Source of the DNA: a virus
Reading direction: 5' to 3' (one strand)
Length of the DNA stretch: 29,366 bases
Virus record (IMG/VR): IMGVR_UViG_3300011129_000059
Coordinates: 1 to 29,366 of that record
Shown here: piece after piece, positions 3,609-21,747 of the stretch
How positions within the stretch are numbered: the first letter of the stretch is position 1
Layout of the letters: each line of letters opens with the position of its first letter
The notes under the pieces: generated by a model
What the model was told of the DNA's origin: nothing
Databases searched by the model: none
What the model saw: the letters and a program-made list of their open reading frames with translations, nothing else
Program-made: the position numbers and the translations under genes

Positions 3609-3638
3609 ACAAATTAGTGTTTTTTAAACGTTATATAA
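3609..3638 (+). promoter_or_regulatory. Putative phage late promoter, copy 3
   Basis: ACAAA at 3609-3613, N15, then CGTTATATAA at 3629-3638; ATG at 3642. Its placement between a terminator and the first gene of the portal-adhesin operon is strong positional support for a promoter role. Confidence 0.65.
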
Positions 3639-3641
3639 TTG

Positions 3642-6586: not shown

Positions 6587-6651
6587 GTTACAAACCAAAG
6601 GCAAATAACATAGAGAAATTAAAGGTATTTCTTAAAAAAAGAAAAAAGTAA
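6583..6651 (+). CDS. Very small basic ORF
   Basis: A 22-codon ORF with a highly basic product, ending KVFLKKRKK. It starts in an ATGA overlap with the connector gene and ends in a TAATG overlap with the adhesin gene. This is the same coupling used by accepted genes here, and the main reason to consider it real. Function unknown; it may only carry ribosomes between the two larger genes. Confidence 0.4.
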   Translation: MSYKPKANNIEKLKVFLKKRKK

Positions 6652-7628
6652 TGGCAAACGAAATATATTCAAAAAGTTGGTGGGGTTCTGGTGTTTGTGA
6701 TAATACTGTTAATTGGGGTTATGTATATCACGCTTATGCGGGTTGCACACCAGCAGAAACAAGGTTTGTAATATCAGTAAAAACAGACAATACCGGCACG
6801 TCTAATAATGACCAATTTACATTGCCTTGGATTGGTGATTATGATGTTGATTGGGGTGATGGAAATACAGATACTGGGCAAAGCGGAACAACTACACACA
6901 CATACTCAACTGCTGGAACTTATGATGTTTCAGTAACACCAACAAACGAATGCAGAATTAATTTTAATAATGGTGGTGATAGGTTAAAAGTTTTAGAGAT
7001 TAAAAACTGGGGTGTTGGTACTTGGTCAAGTGTTGGTTTAGCTAATGCATTTAGCGGTTGTAGTGTTATGGATGTAACCGCAACAGATACACCAGATTTG
7101 AGTGTTATTACTAATGCAAATAATATGTTTAGAAATTGTTTAATAATGGTTGGAAATTCAAGTTTTGAAAATTGGGATACAAGTAATATCACAAGACCAG
7201 AGGGTATGTTCAGAGCAGCAAGATTATTTAATCAAAATATATCAACTTGGGACACAAGCAGCTTTATTAGAACAGATAATATGTTTTTTGATGCTAGGTC
7301 TTTTAACCAACCAATAGGTAGTTGGGATGTGAGCAATGTAACTAATATAAGTAATATGTTTAGAAATAACCAAAGTGCTTTTGACCAAAGTCTAGCAAAT
7401 TGGGATATTACGGCAGTTACGTTGGCTAGCTCAATGTTAAGTTCTAGCGGTATATCAACTGCAAATTATGATGCTACATTAATAGGGTGGGCAGCACAAA
7501 GTATAACAAATGCGGTTAGTATTGATTTTGGTAGTTCACAATACACATTAGGTGGTGCAGCAGAAGCAGCCAGAAACACTTTAGTAAGTACCTACGGGTG
7601 GACTATCGTTGATGGTGGTGGTATATAA
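6651..7628 (+). CDS. PKD-like plus DUF285 (BspA-type) repeat protein, putative adhesin
   Basis: A 325-residue protein in three parts. Residues about 39-97 form a PKD-like beta domain with the signature VDWGDG (66-71) and THTYSTAGTYDVSV (82-95). Residues about 125-262 carry DUF285/BspA-type repeats of about 25 residues, in which MFRN/MFRAA, FNQ and WDTSN/WDVSN elements recur (for example FNQNISTWDTSS and FNQPIGSWDVSNVT). The tail (270-325) is a closing module with ARNTLVSTYGWTIVDGG. PKD and DUF285 domains are common in secreted and surface proteins of Bacteroidota. In a phage the likely role is a virion-displayed receptor-binding or host surface-binding protein. It ends the connector operon, and no signal peptide is visible. 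Horizontal acquisition from a host surface protein is plausible. Confidence 0.72.
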   Translation: MANEIYSKSWWGSGVCDNTVNWGYVYHAYAGCTPAETRFVISVKTDNTGTSNNDQFTLPWIGDYDVDWGDGNTDTGQSGTTTHTYSTAGTYDVSVTPTNECRINFNNGGDRLKVLEIKNWGVGTWSSVGLANAFSGCSVMDVTATDTPDLSVITNANNMFRNCLIMVGNSSFENWDTSNITRPEGMFRAARLFNQNISTWDTSSFIRTDNMFFDARSFNQPIGSWDVSNVTNISNMFRNNQSAFDQSLANWDITAVTLASSMLSSSGISTANYDATLIGWAAQSITNAVSIDFGSSQYTLGGAAEAARNTLVSTYGWTIVDGGGI

Positions 7629-17313: not shown

Positions 17314-17335
17314 GTAAATTAAATACGTTATATAA
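17306..17335 (+). promoter_or_regulatory. Putative phage late promoter, copy 4
   Basis: ATAAA at 17306-17310, N15, then CGTTATATAA at 17326-17335, with ATG at 17338. It would place the ParB, sulfotransferase, glycosyltransferase, epimerase and terminase genes in one late transcription unit. Confidence 0.6.
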
Positions 17336-17337
17336 AT

Positions 17338-17928
17338 ATGGAAAAAGTAAAAATTAGTGCAGTAAAACCAAATAATAAAAACCCCCGACTTATAAAAGAT
17401 TTTAGGTTTAAAAAGCTGGTTAAGTCAATACAAGATTTCCCAGAGATGCTCAAACTACGACCTATTGTAGTAAACAAGGATATGGTAGTACTTGGTGGTA
17501 ATATGAGATTAAAGGCTTGTGCGGAAGCTGGGCTAAAAGAAGTATACATTTTAAAAGCAGATGAATTAACAGAAGAACAACAAAAAGAGTTTATTGTAAA
17601 AGACAATGTTGGTTTTGGTGAATGGGATTGGGATGTTTTAGGTAACGAATGGGATAGTGTACAAATTGAAGATTGGGGACTAGATGTTTGGAAAAACCAC
17701 GATGATATTGTTGAAAAGGTAAATACATCAGATGAGTGGGTTGGAATGCCAGAATTTGAAACACAAGATAATCCTTTTAAAGCAACCATAAGTTTTGACA
17801 CAGAAGAAGATAGATTAGAATTTGCAAAAGAATTTAATATAAAATGGTCTGCACAAGGAAAAGGAACTTGGAGTACTTGGTGGCCATATAAAGAAAGACA
17901 AGATTTAAAAAGCATACAATATGAATAA
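17338..17928 (+). CDS. ParB/Srx-domain protein
   Basis: A 196-residue protein. Residues about 1-75 form a ParB N-terminal-like domain: ISAVKPNNKNPR, then VVLGGNMRLKACAEAGL (50-66), the counterpart of the GxRRxxA core. It is followed by FIVKDNVGFGEWDWDVL, typical of phage ParB-domain proteins linked to DNA modification. The C-terminal part (about 147-190) is another small domain (ATISFDTEEDRLEFAKEFNIKW, TWWP). ParB-like domains bind or cleave nucleic acid or hydrolyse CTP. Here it heads an operon of modification enzymes and terminase, so it may be a DNA-binding factor for modified sites or packaging. It overlaps the sulfotransferase gene by 8 nt. Confidence 0.7.
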   Translation: MEKVKISAVKPNNKNPRLIKDFRFKKLVKSIQDFPEMLKLRPIVVNKDMVVLGGNMRLKACAEAGLKEVYILKADELTEEQQKEFIVKDNVGFGEWDWDVLGNEWDSVQIEDWGLDVWKNHDDIVEKVNTSDEWVGMPEFETQDNPFKATISFDTEEDRLEFAKEFNIKWSAQGKGTWSTWWPYKERQDLKSIQYE

Positions 17929-18571
17929 ACAGCCAATTATAATTGCATCTGCACCAAGGTCTGGTAGTTCCTTAATATCTTATATGTTAAATGAATTGGG
18001 TGTTTTTGTAGGTAATTGTAAAAAACCAGATAAATGGAATGTAAATGGATATTTTGAAAACATACCTATTACAGATATTGTAGTAAAATATTTAAAAGAA
18101 AATGATATACATAATTTAGGTAAAAAATATCAGCCTATAAATCTAGATAAAAAATTTGAACATTTTGGACATAAAATAAATAATACAATTTTAAAACAAG
18201 GTTTACAAAAAGGTGAAAATTGGTTGTATAAAAATCCAAAAACCCCAATATGTTGGAGATTATTTAATGAACATTTTCCAAACGCAAAATGGATTATATT
18301 AGAAAGAAATACTAAAGAGCATTTAAACAGCTTATTAAGAACAAAATTTATGGATGCTTATGATACTGAAAAAGAATGGTTAGATTTTATAAATATCTAT
18401 AAAAATTATCACAATGACATAAGGAAAAATTGCAACACAATAACAATTAATATGTCAGATATGTTTAATGATAACAAAAATTTAATTAATAATATCTGCG
18501 AATTTTTAGATATCGAAAAAAAAGATGTATCATATTGTCTAAATAAAAAGGTTTGGAATGAAAAAAAGTAA
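17921..18571 (+). CDS. Sulfotransferase (PAPS-dependent family)
   Basis: A 216-residue protein with the signature of P-loop-like sulfotransferases: IASAPRSGSSLISYML (8-23), the 5'-phosphosulfate loop, and WIILERNTKEHLNSLLR (124-140), the 3'-phosphate region with R129 and S137. An NGYFEN element (42-47) is also common in the family. The donor would be PAPS. The acceptor cannot be read from sequence. The neighbours (sugar epimerase and glycosyltransferase) suggest sulfation of a sugar, either on DNA, on virion protein, or on host glycan. The gene is very AT-rich and overlaps both neighbours, so it is fully built into the operon. Confidence 0.8.
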   Translation: MNKQPIIIASAPRSGSSLISYMLNELGVFVGNCKKPDKWNVNGYFENIPITDIVVKYLKENDIHNLGKKYQPINLDKKFEHFGHKINNTILKQGLQKGENWLYKNPKTPICWRLFNEHFPNAKWIILERNTKEHLNSLLRTKFMDAYDTEKEWLDFINIYKNYHNDIRKNCNTITINMSDMFNDNKNLINNICEFLDIEKKDVSYCLNKKVWNEKK

Positions 18572-19433
18572 ATATCCAATATATGTTTTATCAAAAGGGC
18601 GTTTTAATAATTGTTTAACCGCTAAGTGTTTTGTAAAAGATAATGTTGATTTTTTTTTAGTTGTTGAGCCACAAGAATATAAAGAATATAAAAAAAACTT
18701 TCCAAAAACAAATATCCTAATATTACCAGACGGACACTATGGCAAAGGTGCAATACCAGTAAGAAATTGGATATGGCAACATAGTAAAAATAATGGACAC
18801 ACAAGACATTGGGAGTTTGATGATAATATAACACAATTTAGAAGATTAAATAAAGGAAAAAGAATTAGATGTAATTCGTTAAAAGCAATTAATGTAATAG
18901 AAGAATTTACAGATAGATATAAAAACATAGCAATATCTGGATTTAATTATACTTTTTTTGTTATGAACCATATGCAGCACCCATTTTTTTTAAATTGCCA
19001 CGTGTATTCAGCATTGTTAATTGACAATAATATACCATATAGATGGAGATTAAGATATAATGCAGATACGGACCTTTGTTTGCAAGTTTTAGATAATAAA
19101 TTATGTACCGTATTATTTAATGCCTTTACAGTTGATAAAATGGCAACAATGAAAATGAAAGGAGGTAATACAGATAGATATAAAGGCGATGGCAGATTAG
19201 TAATGGCAAGAACATTGGAAGAAATATGGCCGCAATATGTTGAAACAAAAATAAGATTTGGCAGACCACAACACGTTATAAAAAATCAATGGAAAAATTT
19301 TATACATCCACTTGTTAGAAGAACAGATATTGATTGGAATAAAATAGAAAATAAAAAATATGATTTTAAACTAAAAAAAATAGATAATATAAAAAGTAAA
19401 TCATTAAATAAATTTTATAAAGACAATAAATGA
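18558..19433 (+). CDS. TET/JBP-associated-type glycosyltransferase (TAGT/GREB1-like)
   Basis: A 291-residue protein. Motifs, in order: YPIYVLSKGRFNNCLTAK (6-23), VVEPQEYKEY (35-44), KGAIPVRNWIWQHS (63-76), HWEFDDNI (84-91) with an acidic metal/sugar site at D88-D89, YNADTDLCLQVL (167-178), NAFTVDKMATMKMKGGNTD (188-206) and FGRPQH (234-239). This series matches the family of TET/JBP-associated glycosyltransferases described in phages and related to the C-terminus of GREB1. Characterised or predicted members attach sugar to modified bases. I see no thymine/cytosine hydroxymethylase or TET/JBP oxygenase in the window, so the acceptor is open; other acceptors remain possible. The epimerase next to it (ATGA overlap) could supply its sugar donor. 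Confidence 0.68.
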   Translation: MKKSKYPIYVLSKGRFNNCLTAKCFVKDNVDFFLVVEPQEYKEYKKNFPKTNILILPDGHYGKGAIPVRNWIWQHSKNNGHTRHWEFDDNITQFRRLNKGKRIRCNSLKAINVIEEFTDRYKNIAISGFNYTFFVMNHMQHPFFLNCHVYSALLIDNNIPYRWRLRYNADTDLCLQVLDNKLCTVLFNAFTVDKMATMKMKGGNTDRYKGDGRLVMARTLEEIWPQYVETKIRFGRPQHVIKNQWKNFIHPLVRRTDIDWNKIENKKYDFKLKKIDNIKSKSLNKFYKDNK

Positions 19434-20263
19434 AAATACTTGTAACTGGAGGTGCTGGATATATAGGAAGTAATTTAATAAAGCATTTAAAAAAAACAAC
19501 AGATGCAGAAATAACATCATTAGATAATTACTTTACTGGCAGTAAACAAAACCATATTAAAGGTGTTAAATATATAAAAGGCAATACAAGCGATATAAGC
19601 AACCTTAATAAACAAGATGTAGTTTACCATTTCGGAGAATATTCAAGAGTTGTACCATCGTTTAAAGACGTAGAGTACCTTATGAAAACAAATTTATTAG
19701 GTACAAGCAAAGTTATAGAGCAATGTAAAAAATGGAATGCAAAATTAATTTATTCAGCAAGTAGTTCTAAATTTGGTGGTAACGAAAACCTAAGTCCATA
19801 TTCTTGGGTAAAAGCTAAAATGGTAGAATTAATAAAAAACTATAATGAATGGTATGGTTTAAATTTTGAGATATGCTACTTTTATAATGTATATGGTGAA
19901 AATCATATTAAAAAAGGAACGTACGCAACAGTAATTGGAATATTTGAAACACAATACAAAAATAAAGAAACATTAACAGTTGTATCAGATGGAAACCAAA
20001 CAAGACAATTTACACACGTAAATGATATTGTAAATGCTTTGGGATTAATATTAAAACAAAACAAAAATAACGAATGGCATTTAAGTTCAGATATTGAATA
20101 TAAAATAATAGATGTAGCAAAAATGTTTACAGATAATATTAAAATAATACCAGCAAGAAATGGTGAAAGATACAAAGCTGTAAGTATAGAAAATAATACA
20201 AAAGAAATACTAGGTTGGGAAATAAAACATAAATTAGAAGATTATATAAATGAACGAAAGTAG
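19430..20263 (+). CDS. NAD-dependent sugar-nucleotide epimerase (extended SDR, GalE-like)
   Basis: A 277-residue extended short-chain dehydrogenase. The nucleotide-binding motif GGAGYIGS is at residues 7-14. Asp in SLDNYF (30-35) is placed for ribose binding. YSASSSKFGG (108-117) and Y124-S-W-V-K128 give the catalytic SSS/YxxxK arrangement. QTRQFTHVNDIV (190-201) matches the conserved substrate-binding stretch. GalE-type enzymes invert UDP-sugars; the exact substrate cannot be told. At 277 residues it is shorter than GalE (about 338). Its place between a glycosyltransferase and terminase suggests it makes the sugar donor for a phage-encoded modification. It overlaps the terminase small subunit gene by 14 nt. 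Confidence 0.85.
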   Translation: MKILVTGGAGYIGSNLIKHLKKTTDAEITSLDNYFTGSKQNHIKGVKYIKGNTSDISNLNKQDVVYHFGEYSRVVPSFKDVEYLMKTNLLGTSKVIEQCKKWNAKLIYSASSSKFGGNENLSPYSWVKAKMVELIKNYNEWYGLNFEICYFYNVYGENHIKKGTYATVIGIFETQYKNKETLTVVSDGNQTRQFTHVNDIVNALGLILKQNKNNEWHLSSDIEYKIIDVAKMFTDNIKIIPARNGERYKAVSIENNTKEILGWEIKHKLEDYINERK

Positions 20264-20609
20264 ACACATAAAAAAGGAAAGTTTATTAAAAGCACTAGAG
20301 CAAAGTTTAGGAGTGGTTACAGTAGCTTGTAAAAAAGCTGATATACCTAGAAGTACATATTACAAATGGTTAAAAGAAGATGAGGTGTTTGCTCGTAATG
20401 TGCAAGACATAGAAAATGTTGCACTTGATTTTGCAGAAAGCCAACTACATAAACAAATATCAGATAACTCAACAGCAGCAACAATATTTTACCTTAAAAC
20501 AAAAGGCAAAAAAAGAGGATATATTGAAAGACAAGAAATAACTGGAGCAGATGGTATGCCAACTAATTTTCAAATAGAAATAATTGATAAAACCGAAGAT
20601 ACAGACTAA
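20250..20609 (+). CDS. terS: Terminase small subunit
   Basis: A 119-residue protein with an N-terminal helix-turn-helix: SLGVVTVACKKADIPRSTYYKWLKED (19-44) is typical of DNA-binding small terminase subunits. A helical segment (ENVALDFAESQLHKQISDNSTAATIFYLKTKGKKRGYIERQ) and an acidic tail follow. The A-ATIFYLK-KKRGY pattern is common in small terminases of phages of Gram-positive bacteria and Bacteroidota. It recognises the packaging site and hands DNA to the large subunit, whose gene overlaps it by 26 nt. Confidence 0.82.
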   Translation: MNESRHIKKESLLKALEQSLGVVTVACKKADIPRSTYYKWLKEDEVFARNVQDIENVALDFAESQLHKQISDNSTAATIFYLKTKGKKRGYIERQEITGADGMPTNFQIEIIDKTEDTD

Positions 20610-21747
20610 TATTGTCTATAAGCATTTAGCCAATACAGATAAAAAAATTGTAGTTGAGCAAGGCGGTACAAGGTCTGGTAAAACTTATAATATTCTTTTA
20701 TGGATTATATTTAATTATTGTACTAATAACAATAAAAAGATTATAACTATTTGCCGTAAATCATTTCCAAGTTTACGTGCAACTGTTATGAGAGATTTTA
20801 TGGCTATACTGGAAAGCTATAAATGTTATAGTGAGCAGTTTCACAATAAATCAAATTCAGAATACCACCTATTTGGAAACCTAGTTGAATTTATATCACT
20901 TGACCAACCACAAAAAATTAGAGGTAGGAAAAGGGATTTGTTATTTGTTAATGAGGGTAATGAACTTTATTTTGAGGATATGCAGCAGCTTTTATTCAGA
21001 ACACAAGATAGGGTTATATTAGATTTTAATCCATCAGATGAATACCATTGGATATATGACAAGCTGATACCTAGAGATGATTGTGTCTTTTATAAAACAA
21101 CTTACCTAGATAACCCTTTTATTGAAAAATCAATAATAAATGAAATAGAAAGGTTAAGAGATACAGATGAACAATATTGGCAGATATATGGTTTAGGTGA
21201 AAGAGCAGCTAGTAGAAGCACAATCTTTAAATATGTTGAGGTAAACCAAATACCACAATTAGCAGAGCTTATAGCATATGGAATGGACTTTGGTTATACA
21301 AATGACCCTACAACATTTGTAGCTGTATATAGCCACGAACATAATTTATATATACAAGAGCATTTATATAGAACACAAATGACTACTGTTGATATACATA
21401 AATTTCTTAAAGAACTAAATTTAACAAGCAAACCTATTTATGCAGATAGTGCAGAGCCTAGACTTATATCAGAATTAAGGGCAATGGGTAACAATATATT
21501 TCCAAGTGTAAAAGGTAGAGATAGTGTAAATGCTGGTATTGACTTATTAAAGAGATACAAGATACATATACTATCTACCTCAACAAATGCAATAAGTGAA
21601 TTTAGAAACTATAAATGGAAAGAAGATAAATCTGGTACACTAACTAATATTCCAGATGATAAAAATAACCATATTATTGACCCGTGCCGCTATGCAACCT
21701 ACTCAATTTTAAGCCGACCAAACTTTGGTAAATATGCTTTACACTAA
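20584..21747 (+). CDS. terL: Terminase large subunit
   Basis: A 387-residue packaging motor-nuclease. The start is a TTG at 20584, as no ATG is suitably placed upstream of the P-loop region. Walker A is VEQGGTRSGKTYNI (24-37) and Walker B is DLLFVNEGNE (118-127). The nuclease domain has MDFGYTNDPT (234-243), IYADSAEPR (286-294) and IDPCRYATYS (366-375), with the expected Asp residues. It pumps DNA into the prohead through the portal. Genes for the modification enzymes lie directly upstream in the same operon, so modification and packaging are probably expressed together. A promoter-like gap follows. Confidence 0.9.
   Translation: MIKPKIQTNIVYKHLANTDKKIVVEQGGTRSGKTYNILLWIIFNYCTNNNKKIITICRKSFPSLRATVMRDFMAILESYKCYSEQFHNKSNSEYHLFGNLVEFISLDQPQKIRGRKRDLLFVNEGNELYFEDMQQLLFRTQDRVILDFNPSDEYHWIYDKLIPRDDCVFYKTTYLDNPFIEKSIINEIERLRDTDEQYWQIYGLGERAASRSTIFKYVEVNQIPQLAELIAYGMDFGYTNDPTTFVAVYSHEHNLYIQEHLYRTQMTTVDIHKFLKELNLTSKPIYADSAEPRLISELRAMGNNIFPSVKGRDSVNAGIDLLKRYKIHILSTSTNAISEFRNYKWKEDKSGTLTNIPDDKNNHIIDPCRYATYSILSRPNFGKYALH

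Follow-up and report, generated by a model that had tools for sequence, protein, structure and literature searches.

Results

The window, the whole 29,366-nt stretch of phage DNA analysed here, carries six consecutive genes on its plus strand. In 5' to 3' order these are a ParB-like gene (17338-17928), a sulfotransferase gene (ST, 17921-18571), a TAGT (TET-associated) GT-A glycosyltransferase gene (18558-19433), an NAD-dependent nucleotide-sugar epimerase gene (19430-20263), and the genes for the small (TerS, 20250-20609) and large (TerL, 20584-21747) terminase subunits. Successive genes overlap by 8, 14, 4, 14 and 26 nt, which bears out the five overlaps of 4-26 nt in the original prediction. 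Its title listed the genes in the wrong order, as ST precedes TAGT and TAGT precedes the epimerase; its family calls for all six genes hold on the open reading frames and profile matches. TerL matched PF04466 and PF17288 at about 78 bits each, and TerS had weak profile matches. At the level of sequence, the gene set and its operon arrangement are established.

The sequence ACGTTATATAA (17325-17335) lies 2 nt 5' of the parB ATG. Further exact copies occur at 3628 and 22349, just 5' of genes starting at 3639 and 22362, and copies with one mismatch occur at 116 and 1360, just 5' of genes starting at 129 and 1376. Allowing up to one mismatch, the window holds six matches where 1.5 were expected; across the window and all fetched loci, a start codon was found within 8 nt of 37 of the 39 exact copies. 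Of the single late-type promoter originally proposed for this operon, the part that stands is a repeated motif ahead of gene starts. Its promoter role is our inference, and the motif is probably a late promoter or leader common to several genes.

We compared the window with eight related phages whose terminase DNA was 82-86% identical to it. Homology ended at 17686-17696, inside parB, and restarted at 20221-20310, at terS; in all eight relatives the intervening contents were unrelated to those of the window. The GC content of the ST, TAGT and epimerase genes was 23-26.5%, compared with 30-33% for the flanks. These breakpoints and the GC content delimit an exchangeable cassette, from 17690 to about 20249, that comprises the 3' half of parB, ST, TAGT and the epimerase, with TerS as its right flank. 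The same slot in relatives held a TET/JBP dioxygenase (PF12851; 16 loci plus the APS-kinase lineage), Mom (PF25680, 165.7 bits), GTP cyclohydrolase I (210.9 bits), a PAPS reductase with a second ParB, or AdoMet decarboxylase, and ParB-N6_N4_Mtase fusions were found where the slot seemed empty or held SpeD. Within a freshwater lineage whose TerL proteins are 92-97% identical, TET-containing cassettes have been replaced by ST-TAGT. By these sequence comparisons, the region is one swap cassette, equivalent in place to known DNA-modification enzymes.

The left breakpoint divides the ParB-like protein in two. Its N-terminal domain (17338-17690, plus strand) is constant within the lineage, at 80-89% identity among same-lineage phages whichever cassette follows. 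The window protein scored below the ParB_N cut-off (20.6 versus 26.3 bits) and strongly matched phrog_940, phrog_498 and phrog_620; its homologue in L077 scored above the cut-off (33.2 bits). This domain, which is fused to N6_N4_Mtase in relatives, is probably a DNA-binding module.

The C-terminus carries a 'WxGMPEF...WWP' domain (17737-17886, plus strand). A profile built from the N-terminal extensions of TAGTs alone matched residues 134-183 of the window ParB with an E-value of 8.9e-7, and the same domain forms the N-terminal extension of the TAGTs of the cultured phages Aeh1, phiAS5, 65, POP12, 1.076.O and 1.124.O. Aligning TAGT extensions directly to ParB C-termini by HMM-HMM comparison (hhalign) gave a weak signal; clear matches came with a profile restricted to the trimmed motif. 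The domain was present in 30 of 44 ParBs preceding a TAGT and in one of the 34 accompanied by no TAGT or TET, on a contig that ends after ST. L102 encodes ParB, this domain and TAGT in a single open reading frame. ParB C-termini grouped by cassette with a purity of 0.86, compared with a permuted mean of 0.33 and maximum of 0.44 (2000 permutations), in rows that are related and therefore not independent. The sequence link between ParB and TAGT suggests that the domain is probably a partner or docking domain for TAGT, and the earlier assignment of ParB to a modification system gains support from a cassette-matched C-terminus that is itself a TAGT domain.

ST matched PF13469 at 47.4 bits (cut-off 27). 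It has the 5'-phosphosulfate loop and the 3'-phosphate Arg/Ser of PAPS-dependent sulfotransferases; the PRSGSS loop, R129 and S137 were invariant in six close relatives, and RSG, S17 (within that loop), R129 and S137 in all 10 sequences compared. The AlphaFold2 model aligned with the tyrosylprotein sulfotransferase complex TPST1-PAP over 191 residues (Z 16.4, rmsd 3.9), followed by carbohydrate sulfotransferases at Z 12-13. On sequence and model, ST is a predicted PAPS-dependent sulfotransferase, and its fold does not name the substrate, since the nearest folds act on protein tyrosine and then on carbohydrate. In each of the eight contigs that extend beyond ST, TAGT followed directly; these include L003, which has another terminase, and L094, which has a divergent terminase and a Vsr endonuclease. 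The proposal that ST belongs with TAGT is upheld by this adjacency. Some distant phage sulfotransferases (L097, L098) lie amid head genes and lack a neighbouring TAGT.

An unrelated sulfotransferase (PF03567, Sulfotransfer_2) occupied the same slot in seven further contigs, where it lay between TAGT and TET/JBP in the order ParB-TAGT-Sulfotransfer_2-TET/JBP. Sulfotransferases are consistently linked to DNA-modification genes both in these seven contigs and in the eight with ST-TAGT. Among 45 records, Sulfotransfer_2 was found in no other slot beyond the L163 type, and neither ST nor Sulfotransfer_2 proteins had a match in 50,697 cultured phage records. Several of the seven contigs continue into an APS kinase gene. 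We rejected the idea that this kinase and the adjacent HIGH nucleotidyltransferase supply PAPS specifically for ST, as both genes form an invariable flank in one freshwater lineage and accompany TET cassettes too. The kinase is APS-kinase-like, the nucleotidyltransferase is nearest NMN adenylyltransferase rather than ATP sulfurylase, and L179 has the TAGT-Sulfotransfer_2-TET set and lacks the pair. In loci of the L166 type, a gene of 204 aa next to TET is at best a weak candidate for a third sulfotransferase; its one such feature is a GxGRSGT loop, and it drew no support from Pfam or PDB.

The TAGT matched PF20691 at 159.9 bits (cut-off 27.5). Its acidic metal-site residues, D88-D89, were invariant in 12 sequences, and its AlphaFold2 model (pLDDT 86.5) gave GT-A structural matches at Z 14-15. 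The PHROG to which it belongs is named beta-glucosyl-HMC-alpha-glucosyltransferase. ST-linked TAGTs did not quite form a single clade: the 14-row clade (100/100) that holds them also contains epimerase-linked and three unlinked TAGTs. The epimerase (PF01370, 126 bits; phrog_540, 174 bits) follows TAGT immediately in L064, L066, L067 and L070 as well, and is absent from seven of the eight ST contigs that extend beyond ST. Its family was thus named correctly in the original prediction, in which it supplied the sugar donor; it is not an essential part of the system, and we regard it as an accessory, optional donor supply.

TAGT-type enzymes are thought to use a hydroxymethyl base. No recognised enzyme that makes such a base was present in the window fragment. 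A Pfam scan of most window open reading frames and a search of the ST contigs tested, all of them fragmentary records, found no TET/JBP (PF12851), and neither thymidylate-synthase family (PF00303) nor C5-methyltransferase (PF00145) genes turned up in the window or in those relatives that we searched, which are likewise fragments. The contigs with the L163 set (TAGT, Sulfotransfer_2 and TET) likewise have no C5-methyltransferase gene; there, TET would be expected to hydroxylate T, TAGT to glycosylate and Sulfotransfer_2 to sulfate. TET/JBP was also absent from 13 of 13 bacterial genomes with ParB-TAGT. This absence suggests that TAGT may use an acceptor other than a TET/JBP product.

Discussion

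We consider it somewhat more probable than the other readings together that this marine phage cassette is a DNA-hypermodification cassette that makes a sulfated glycosyl base. That phage DNA is the target, as originally proposed, is well supported by sequence comparison, because DNA methyltransferase, TET/JBP or Mom takes this slot in relatives, and because the C-terminal domain of ParB is a TAGT domain. The acceptor base, the sugar, the site of sulfation, the timing and the protective role are what we infer from there. In the proposed mechanism, the two-domain ParB-like protein would use its cassette-specific C-terminal domain to recruit the modifying enzymes to phage DNA. TAGT would move a sugar from a nucleotide donor, here adjusted by the epimerase, onto a DNA base, and ST would move sulfate from PAPS to that sugar, its presumed site, or to a base substituent. 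The resulting base, bulky and negatively charged, could block restriction, CRISPR or modification-dependent nucleases. Co-expression of the cassette with terminase would mean that modification is complete before packaging.

An unlikely variant is that TAGT glycosylates DNA and ST merely shares the operon, acting on tyrosine in a virion protein, on a glycan of the host surface or on some small molecule. The fold of ST is indeed nearest to tyrosylprotein sulfotransferases (Z 16.4, versus 12-13 for the carbohydrate enzymes), and the phage sulfotransferases of L097 and L098 sit amid head genes. However, ST always adjoins TAGT, within a DNA-modification slot and across divergent phages, and a second, unrelated sulfotransferase family occupies the same slot between TAGT and TET/JBP. 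We give still less credence to a sulfated sugar on capsid or tail proteins. Late, terminase-proximal expression would suit such a role, and in Vibrio phage 1.076.O a TAGT gene has the portal gene on one side and head morphogenesis genes on the other. Against it, relatives fill the slot with DNA methyltransferase fusions, TET/JBP or Mom, and the partner domain that these proteins share is joined to TAGT or to a DNA-binding domain of ParB type rather than to a virion protein.

Sulfotransferases, glycosyltransferases and epimerases are frequent in capsule and LPS clusters, which could point to a change in host surface glycan, for superinfection exclusion or receptor alteration. We find this very improbable: in the ST contigs, ST and TAGT lie between ParB and terminase, none of the inspected ST loci was beside capsule or LPS genes, and in the window we recognised no gene for a membrane flippase or polymerase. 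Nor did the ST loci and slot loci that we inspected show the genes apart from one another and next to capsule or LPS genes, the arrangement named at the outset as contrary to DNA modification.

Returning to a sulfated base on phage DNA, we propose a broader model with slightly less than even confidence. It holds that phage DNA carries a base with a sulfated sugar (or sulfated hydroxymethyl) installed through a modular ParB-like adaptor, and that ST-TAGT, TAGT-sulfotransferase-TET, Mom, methyltransferase and possibly preQ0/aminopropyl cassettes are interchangeable in one terminase-linked slot. We know of no description of sulfation of DNA bases, and the literature searched on sulfotransferases or sulfated DNA and on phage DNA modification held no report of sulfated phage DNA. 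If the model is true, a charged group joins the phage DNA-modification repertoire as a new anti-nuclease strategy. ParB-like genes, common beside phage terminases, gain a proposed function that can be tested, as adaptors for modification enzymes. The slot is fixed in place, with ParB to the left and terminase to the right, and its content is predicted by the ParB C-terminus; it can therefore be mined in metagenomes for unknown DNA chemistries.

The closest known systems glycosylate 5hm-pyrimidines with TET/JBP and TAGT, as in Nonlabens phage P12024L, where TET, a TAGT homologue and a DNA methyltransferase lie in a row. The window likewise has a TAGT, and its slot relatives pair TAGT with TET/JBP. 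Unlike those systems, the window and ST contigs, as fragments, yielded no TET/JBP; they carry in addition a sulfotransferase and a ParB that bears a domain of TAGT type, and the window cassette is part of the terminase operon. T4-type glucosylation of 5hmC, by dCMP hydroxymethylase and glucosyltransferases, is similar in that a phage glycosyltransferase adds sugar to phage DNA, whereas the window has no hydroxymethylase-family gene that we found and would add a sulfate step and cassette exchange. Phage ParB-DNA methyltransferase fusions (phrog_498; Streptococcus Javan phages) share the ParB N-terminal domain and, in relatives, the slot; where they have a C-terminal methyltransferase, the window has a probable partner domain for TAGT, with the enzymes encoded separately. 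Hypervariable islands rich in methyltransferase and terminase genes have been described in metagenomic phages (PMC7468147). In the accessible part of that report, as in our slot, variability lies near ParB/TerS/TerL, with methyltransferase or acetyltransferase variants at one place. That part describes variability and mentions neither a ParB C-terminus matched to its cassette, nor sulfotransferases, nor a breakpoint within parB.

A discrete cassette from inside parB to terS

The ParB-to-TerL genes named in the original prediction are present as a single run of overlapping genes, encoding a ParB-like protein (17338-17928), a PF13469 sulfotransferase (ST, 17921-18571), a TET-associated glycosyltransferase (TAGT, PF20691, 18558-19433), an epimerase (19430-20263), TerS (20250-20609) and TerL (20584-21747), with successive overlaps of 8, 14, 4, 14 and 26 nt. 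An ORF is still open at the right end of this 29,366-base IMG/VR virus contig; the record is therefore a fragment. The motif ACGTTATATAA lies 2 nt upstream of the parB start. Exact or one-mismatch copies stand immediately before start codons at window positions 116, 1360, 3628, 17325 and 22349, and across the window and all fetched loci a start codon lies within 8 nt of 37 of 39 exact copies, so the motif may be a late promoter or leader peculiar to this phage type. Elsewhere, downstream of the portal gene, a PKD and DUF285 repeat protein (6651-7628) is a possible host-recognition or decoration protein.

Gene order around the terminase was compared in 80 IMG/VR relatives of TerL, most of which had ParB at the left and TerS-TerL at the right, with variable content between. 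When window DNA was aligned with that of eight relatives (terminase segment 82-86% identical), homology broke off on the left at 17686-17696, within parB, and resumed on the right at 20221-20310, at terS. GC content is 23-26.5% in the three inner genes versus 30-33% in the flanks. The window therefore holds a discrete ~2.6 kb cassette that begins inside parB.

Sulfotransferase and glycosyltransferase are linked

By family, motif residues and predicted fold, ST is a sulfotransferase. It matches PF13469 above the cut-off (47.4 bits); an alignment of six sequences (relatives 39-47% identical to the window protein) shows no variation in its PRSGSS loop, R129 or S137, and RSG, S17, R129 and S137 stayed invariant when four more were added. 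An alignment-based AlphaFold2 model (pLDDT 86.8) matched tyrosylprotein sulfotransferases with PAP (Z 16.4, 191 residues), followed by heparan-sulfate sulfotransferases (Z 12-13). A base kinase is unlikely because the loop lacks the Walker-A lysine. TAGT has a GT-A fold by structure comparison and a Pfam match of 159.9 bits.

ParB precedes ST in all nine ST contigs, and TAGT directly follows it in all eight that extend further (the window and related loci L002, L003, L004, L005, L006, L010 and L094). In L003 the pair accompanies an unrelated terminase; in L094, from a divergent phage, the gene run also includes a Vsr mismatch endonuclease. Independently, seven contigs carry in series ParB, a short TAGT, a second, unrelated sulfotransferase (Sulfotransfer_2, PF03567; 57 bits, cut-off 22) and a TET/JBP dioxygenase (PF12851). 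Within a freshwater lineage with 92-97% identical TerL, ST-TAGT (L005) and Sulfotransfer_2-TET cassettes interchange at one position.

The epimerase, which probably sets sugar identity, is absent from the other ST contigs and thus optional in ST cassettes; it recurs in a cassette of a 306-aa glycosyltransferase, TAGT and epimerase (L064, L066; L067 and L070 start within TAGT).

The ParB C-terminus travels with the cassette

The 64 ParBs from this slot share a conserved N-terminal domain (80-89% within the near lineage), whereas their C-termini are unrelated (10-20%) except between cassettes of like kind. C-terminal clusters matched cassette type with a purity of 0.86 (permuted labels: mean 0.33, maximum 0.44, 2000 permutations), a descriptive statistic since the rows are related to one another. 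The ParB C-terminus swaps with the cassette, and the breakpoint within the gene is direct evidence of this. The very distant ST-cassette ParB of L094 shares 22% in the N-domain, yet 37% in the C-domain.

The C-domain of ST-cassette ParBs reads WxGMPEF ... W[WF]P and matches no Pfam model. A profile made solely from N-terminal extensions of TAGT proteins matched 39 ParBs and short ORFs in TAGT loci, most directly upstream of TAGT, including the window ParB (E 8.9e-7, residues 134-183). The domain occurs in 30 of 44 ParBs preceding TAGT, in one of 34 unaccompanied by TAGT or TET (L092, a contig ending in ST), and by profile search in none of 23 TET cassettes, whose ParBs have their own C-termini. 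One ORF (L102, 2735-4291) joins ParB, this domain and TAGT. In L103, L106, L107, L115 and L157, too, the domain is either fused between the two or a small stand-alone ORF just ahead of TAGT. From these arrangements we infer that the domain may dock or activate TAGT. Of 54 bacterial and MAG loci from several phyla, about half also have ParB next to TAGT.

Other contents of the slot

When cluster representatives were scanned against Pfam and PHROG, the slot proved to hold TET/JBP in 16 loci, Mom in two (L018, L057), PAPS reductase with a second ParB in 11-12, and also GTP cyclohydrolase I, AdoMet decarboxylase, ABC-GNAT proteins, FkbM methyltransferase, formyltransferase and other glycosyltransferases. 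Where the slot seemed empty (L011, L037), parB is longer, its product being a ParB-N6/N4 DNA methyltransferase fusion; in cultured phages the slot-type ParB domain matches fusions annotated 'DNA modification methylase'. The theme that unites these contents is DNA modification.

Three arrangements were seen in passing. AdoMet decarboxylase (SpeD) directly follows a ParB-N6/N4 DNA methyltransferase fusion in L077 (994-2512) and its relatives L061, L085 and L088; with decarboxylated SAM, the methyltransferase domain could transfer an aminopropyl group to DNA. A PAPS-reductase-domain protein and second ParB stand in IbrA/IbrB-like order in L059, L062, L065, L072, L074, L075, L080, L081 and L086. 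GTP cyclohydrolase I in L069 (1-1387), behind a fragment QueE-like by eye, and in L071 (3-554) marks a possible deazaguanine DNA modification cassette.

Probable target of the modification

A DNA hypermodification cassette is the best reading of the ParB-ST-TAGT-epimerase segment. DNA is probably the target of the glycosyltransferase, and the product, somewhat more likely than not, is DNA bearing a sulfated sugar or base. TAGT enzymes are thought to require a hydroxymethyl pyrimidine. The ST contigs tested yielded neither TET/JBP nor a thymidylate-synthase-family enzyme, the latter being absent from the window as well, and no scanned window ORF resembled either. A query that does detect TET/JBP in P12024L likewise gave no hit in 13 genomes carrying TAGT loci, mostly of ParB-TAGT type. 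Either the missing hydroxymethyl step lies outside the contig fragments or these TAGTs take another acceptor. Since neither a C5-methyltransferase nor a thymidylate-synthase-family gene is present in the Sulfotransfer_2-TET contigs, their TET would, like JBP, act on thymine.

Distant sulfotransferases in L097 (7977-8681) and L098 (7986-8630) lie among head genes, beside glycosyltransferase- or methyltransferase-like genes and without TAGT; these possibly sulfate virion glycans.

A set of 50,697 cultured phage genomes contained no match to ST or to the Sulfotransfer_2 protein. The proposed sulfation step, the exchange of putative ParB adaptors and the anatomy of the swap site had no description in the literature searched, whose coverage excluded most subscription papers; the general kind of system is already known.
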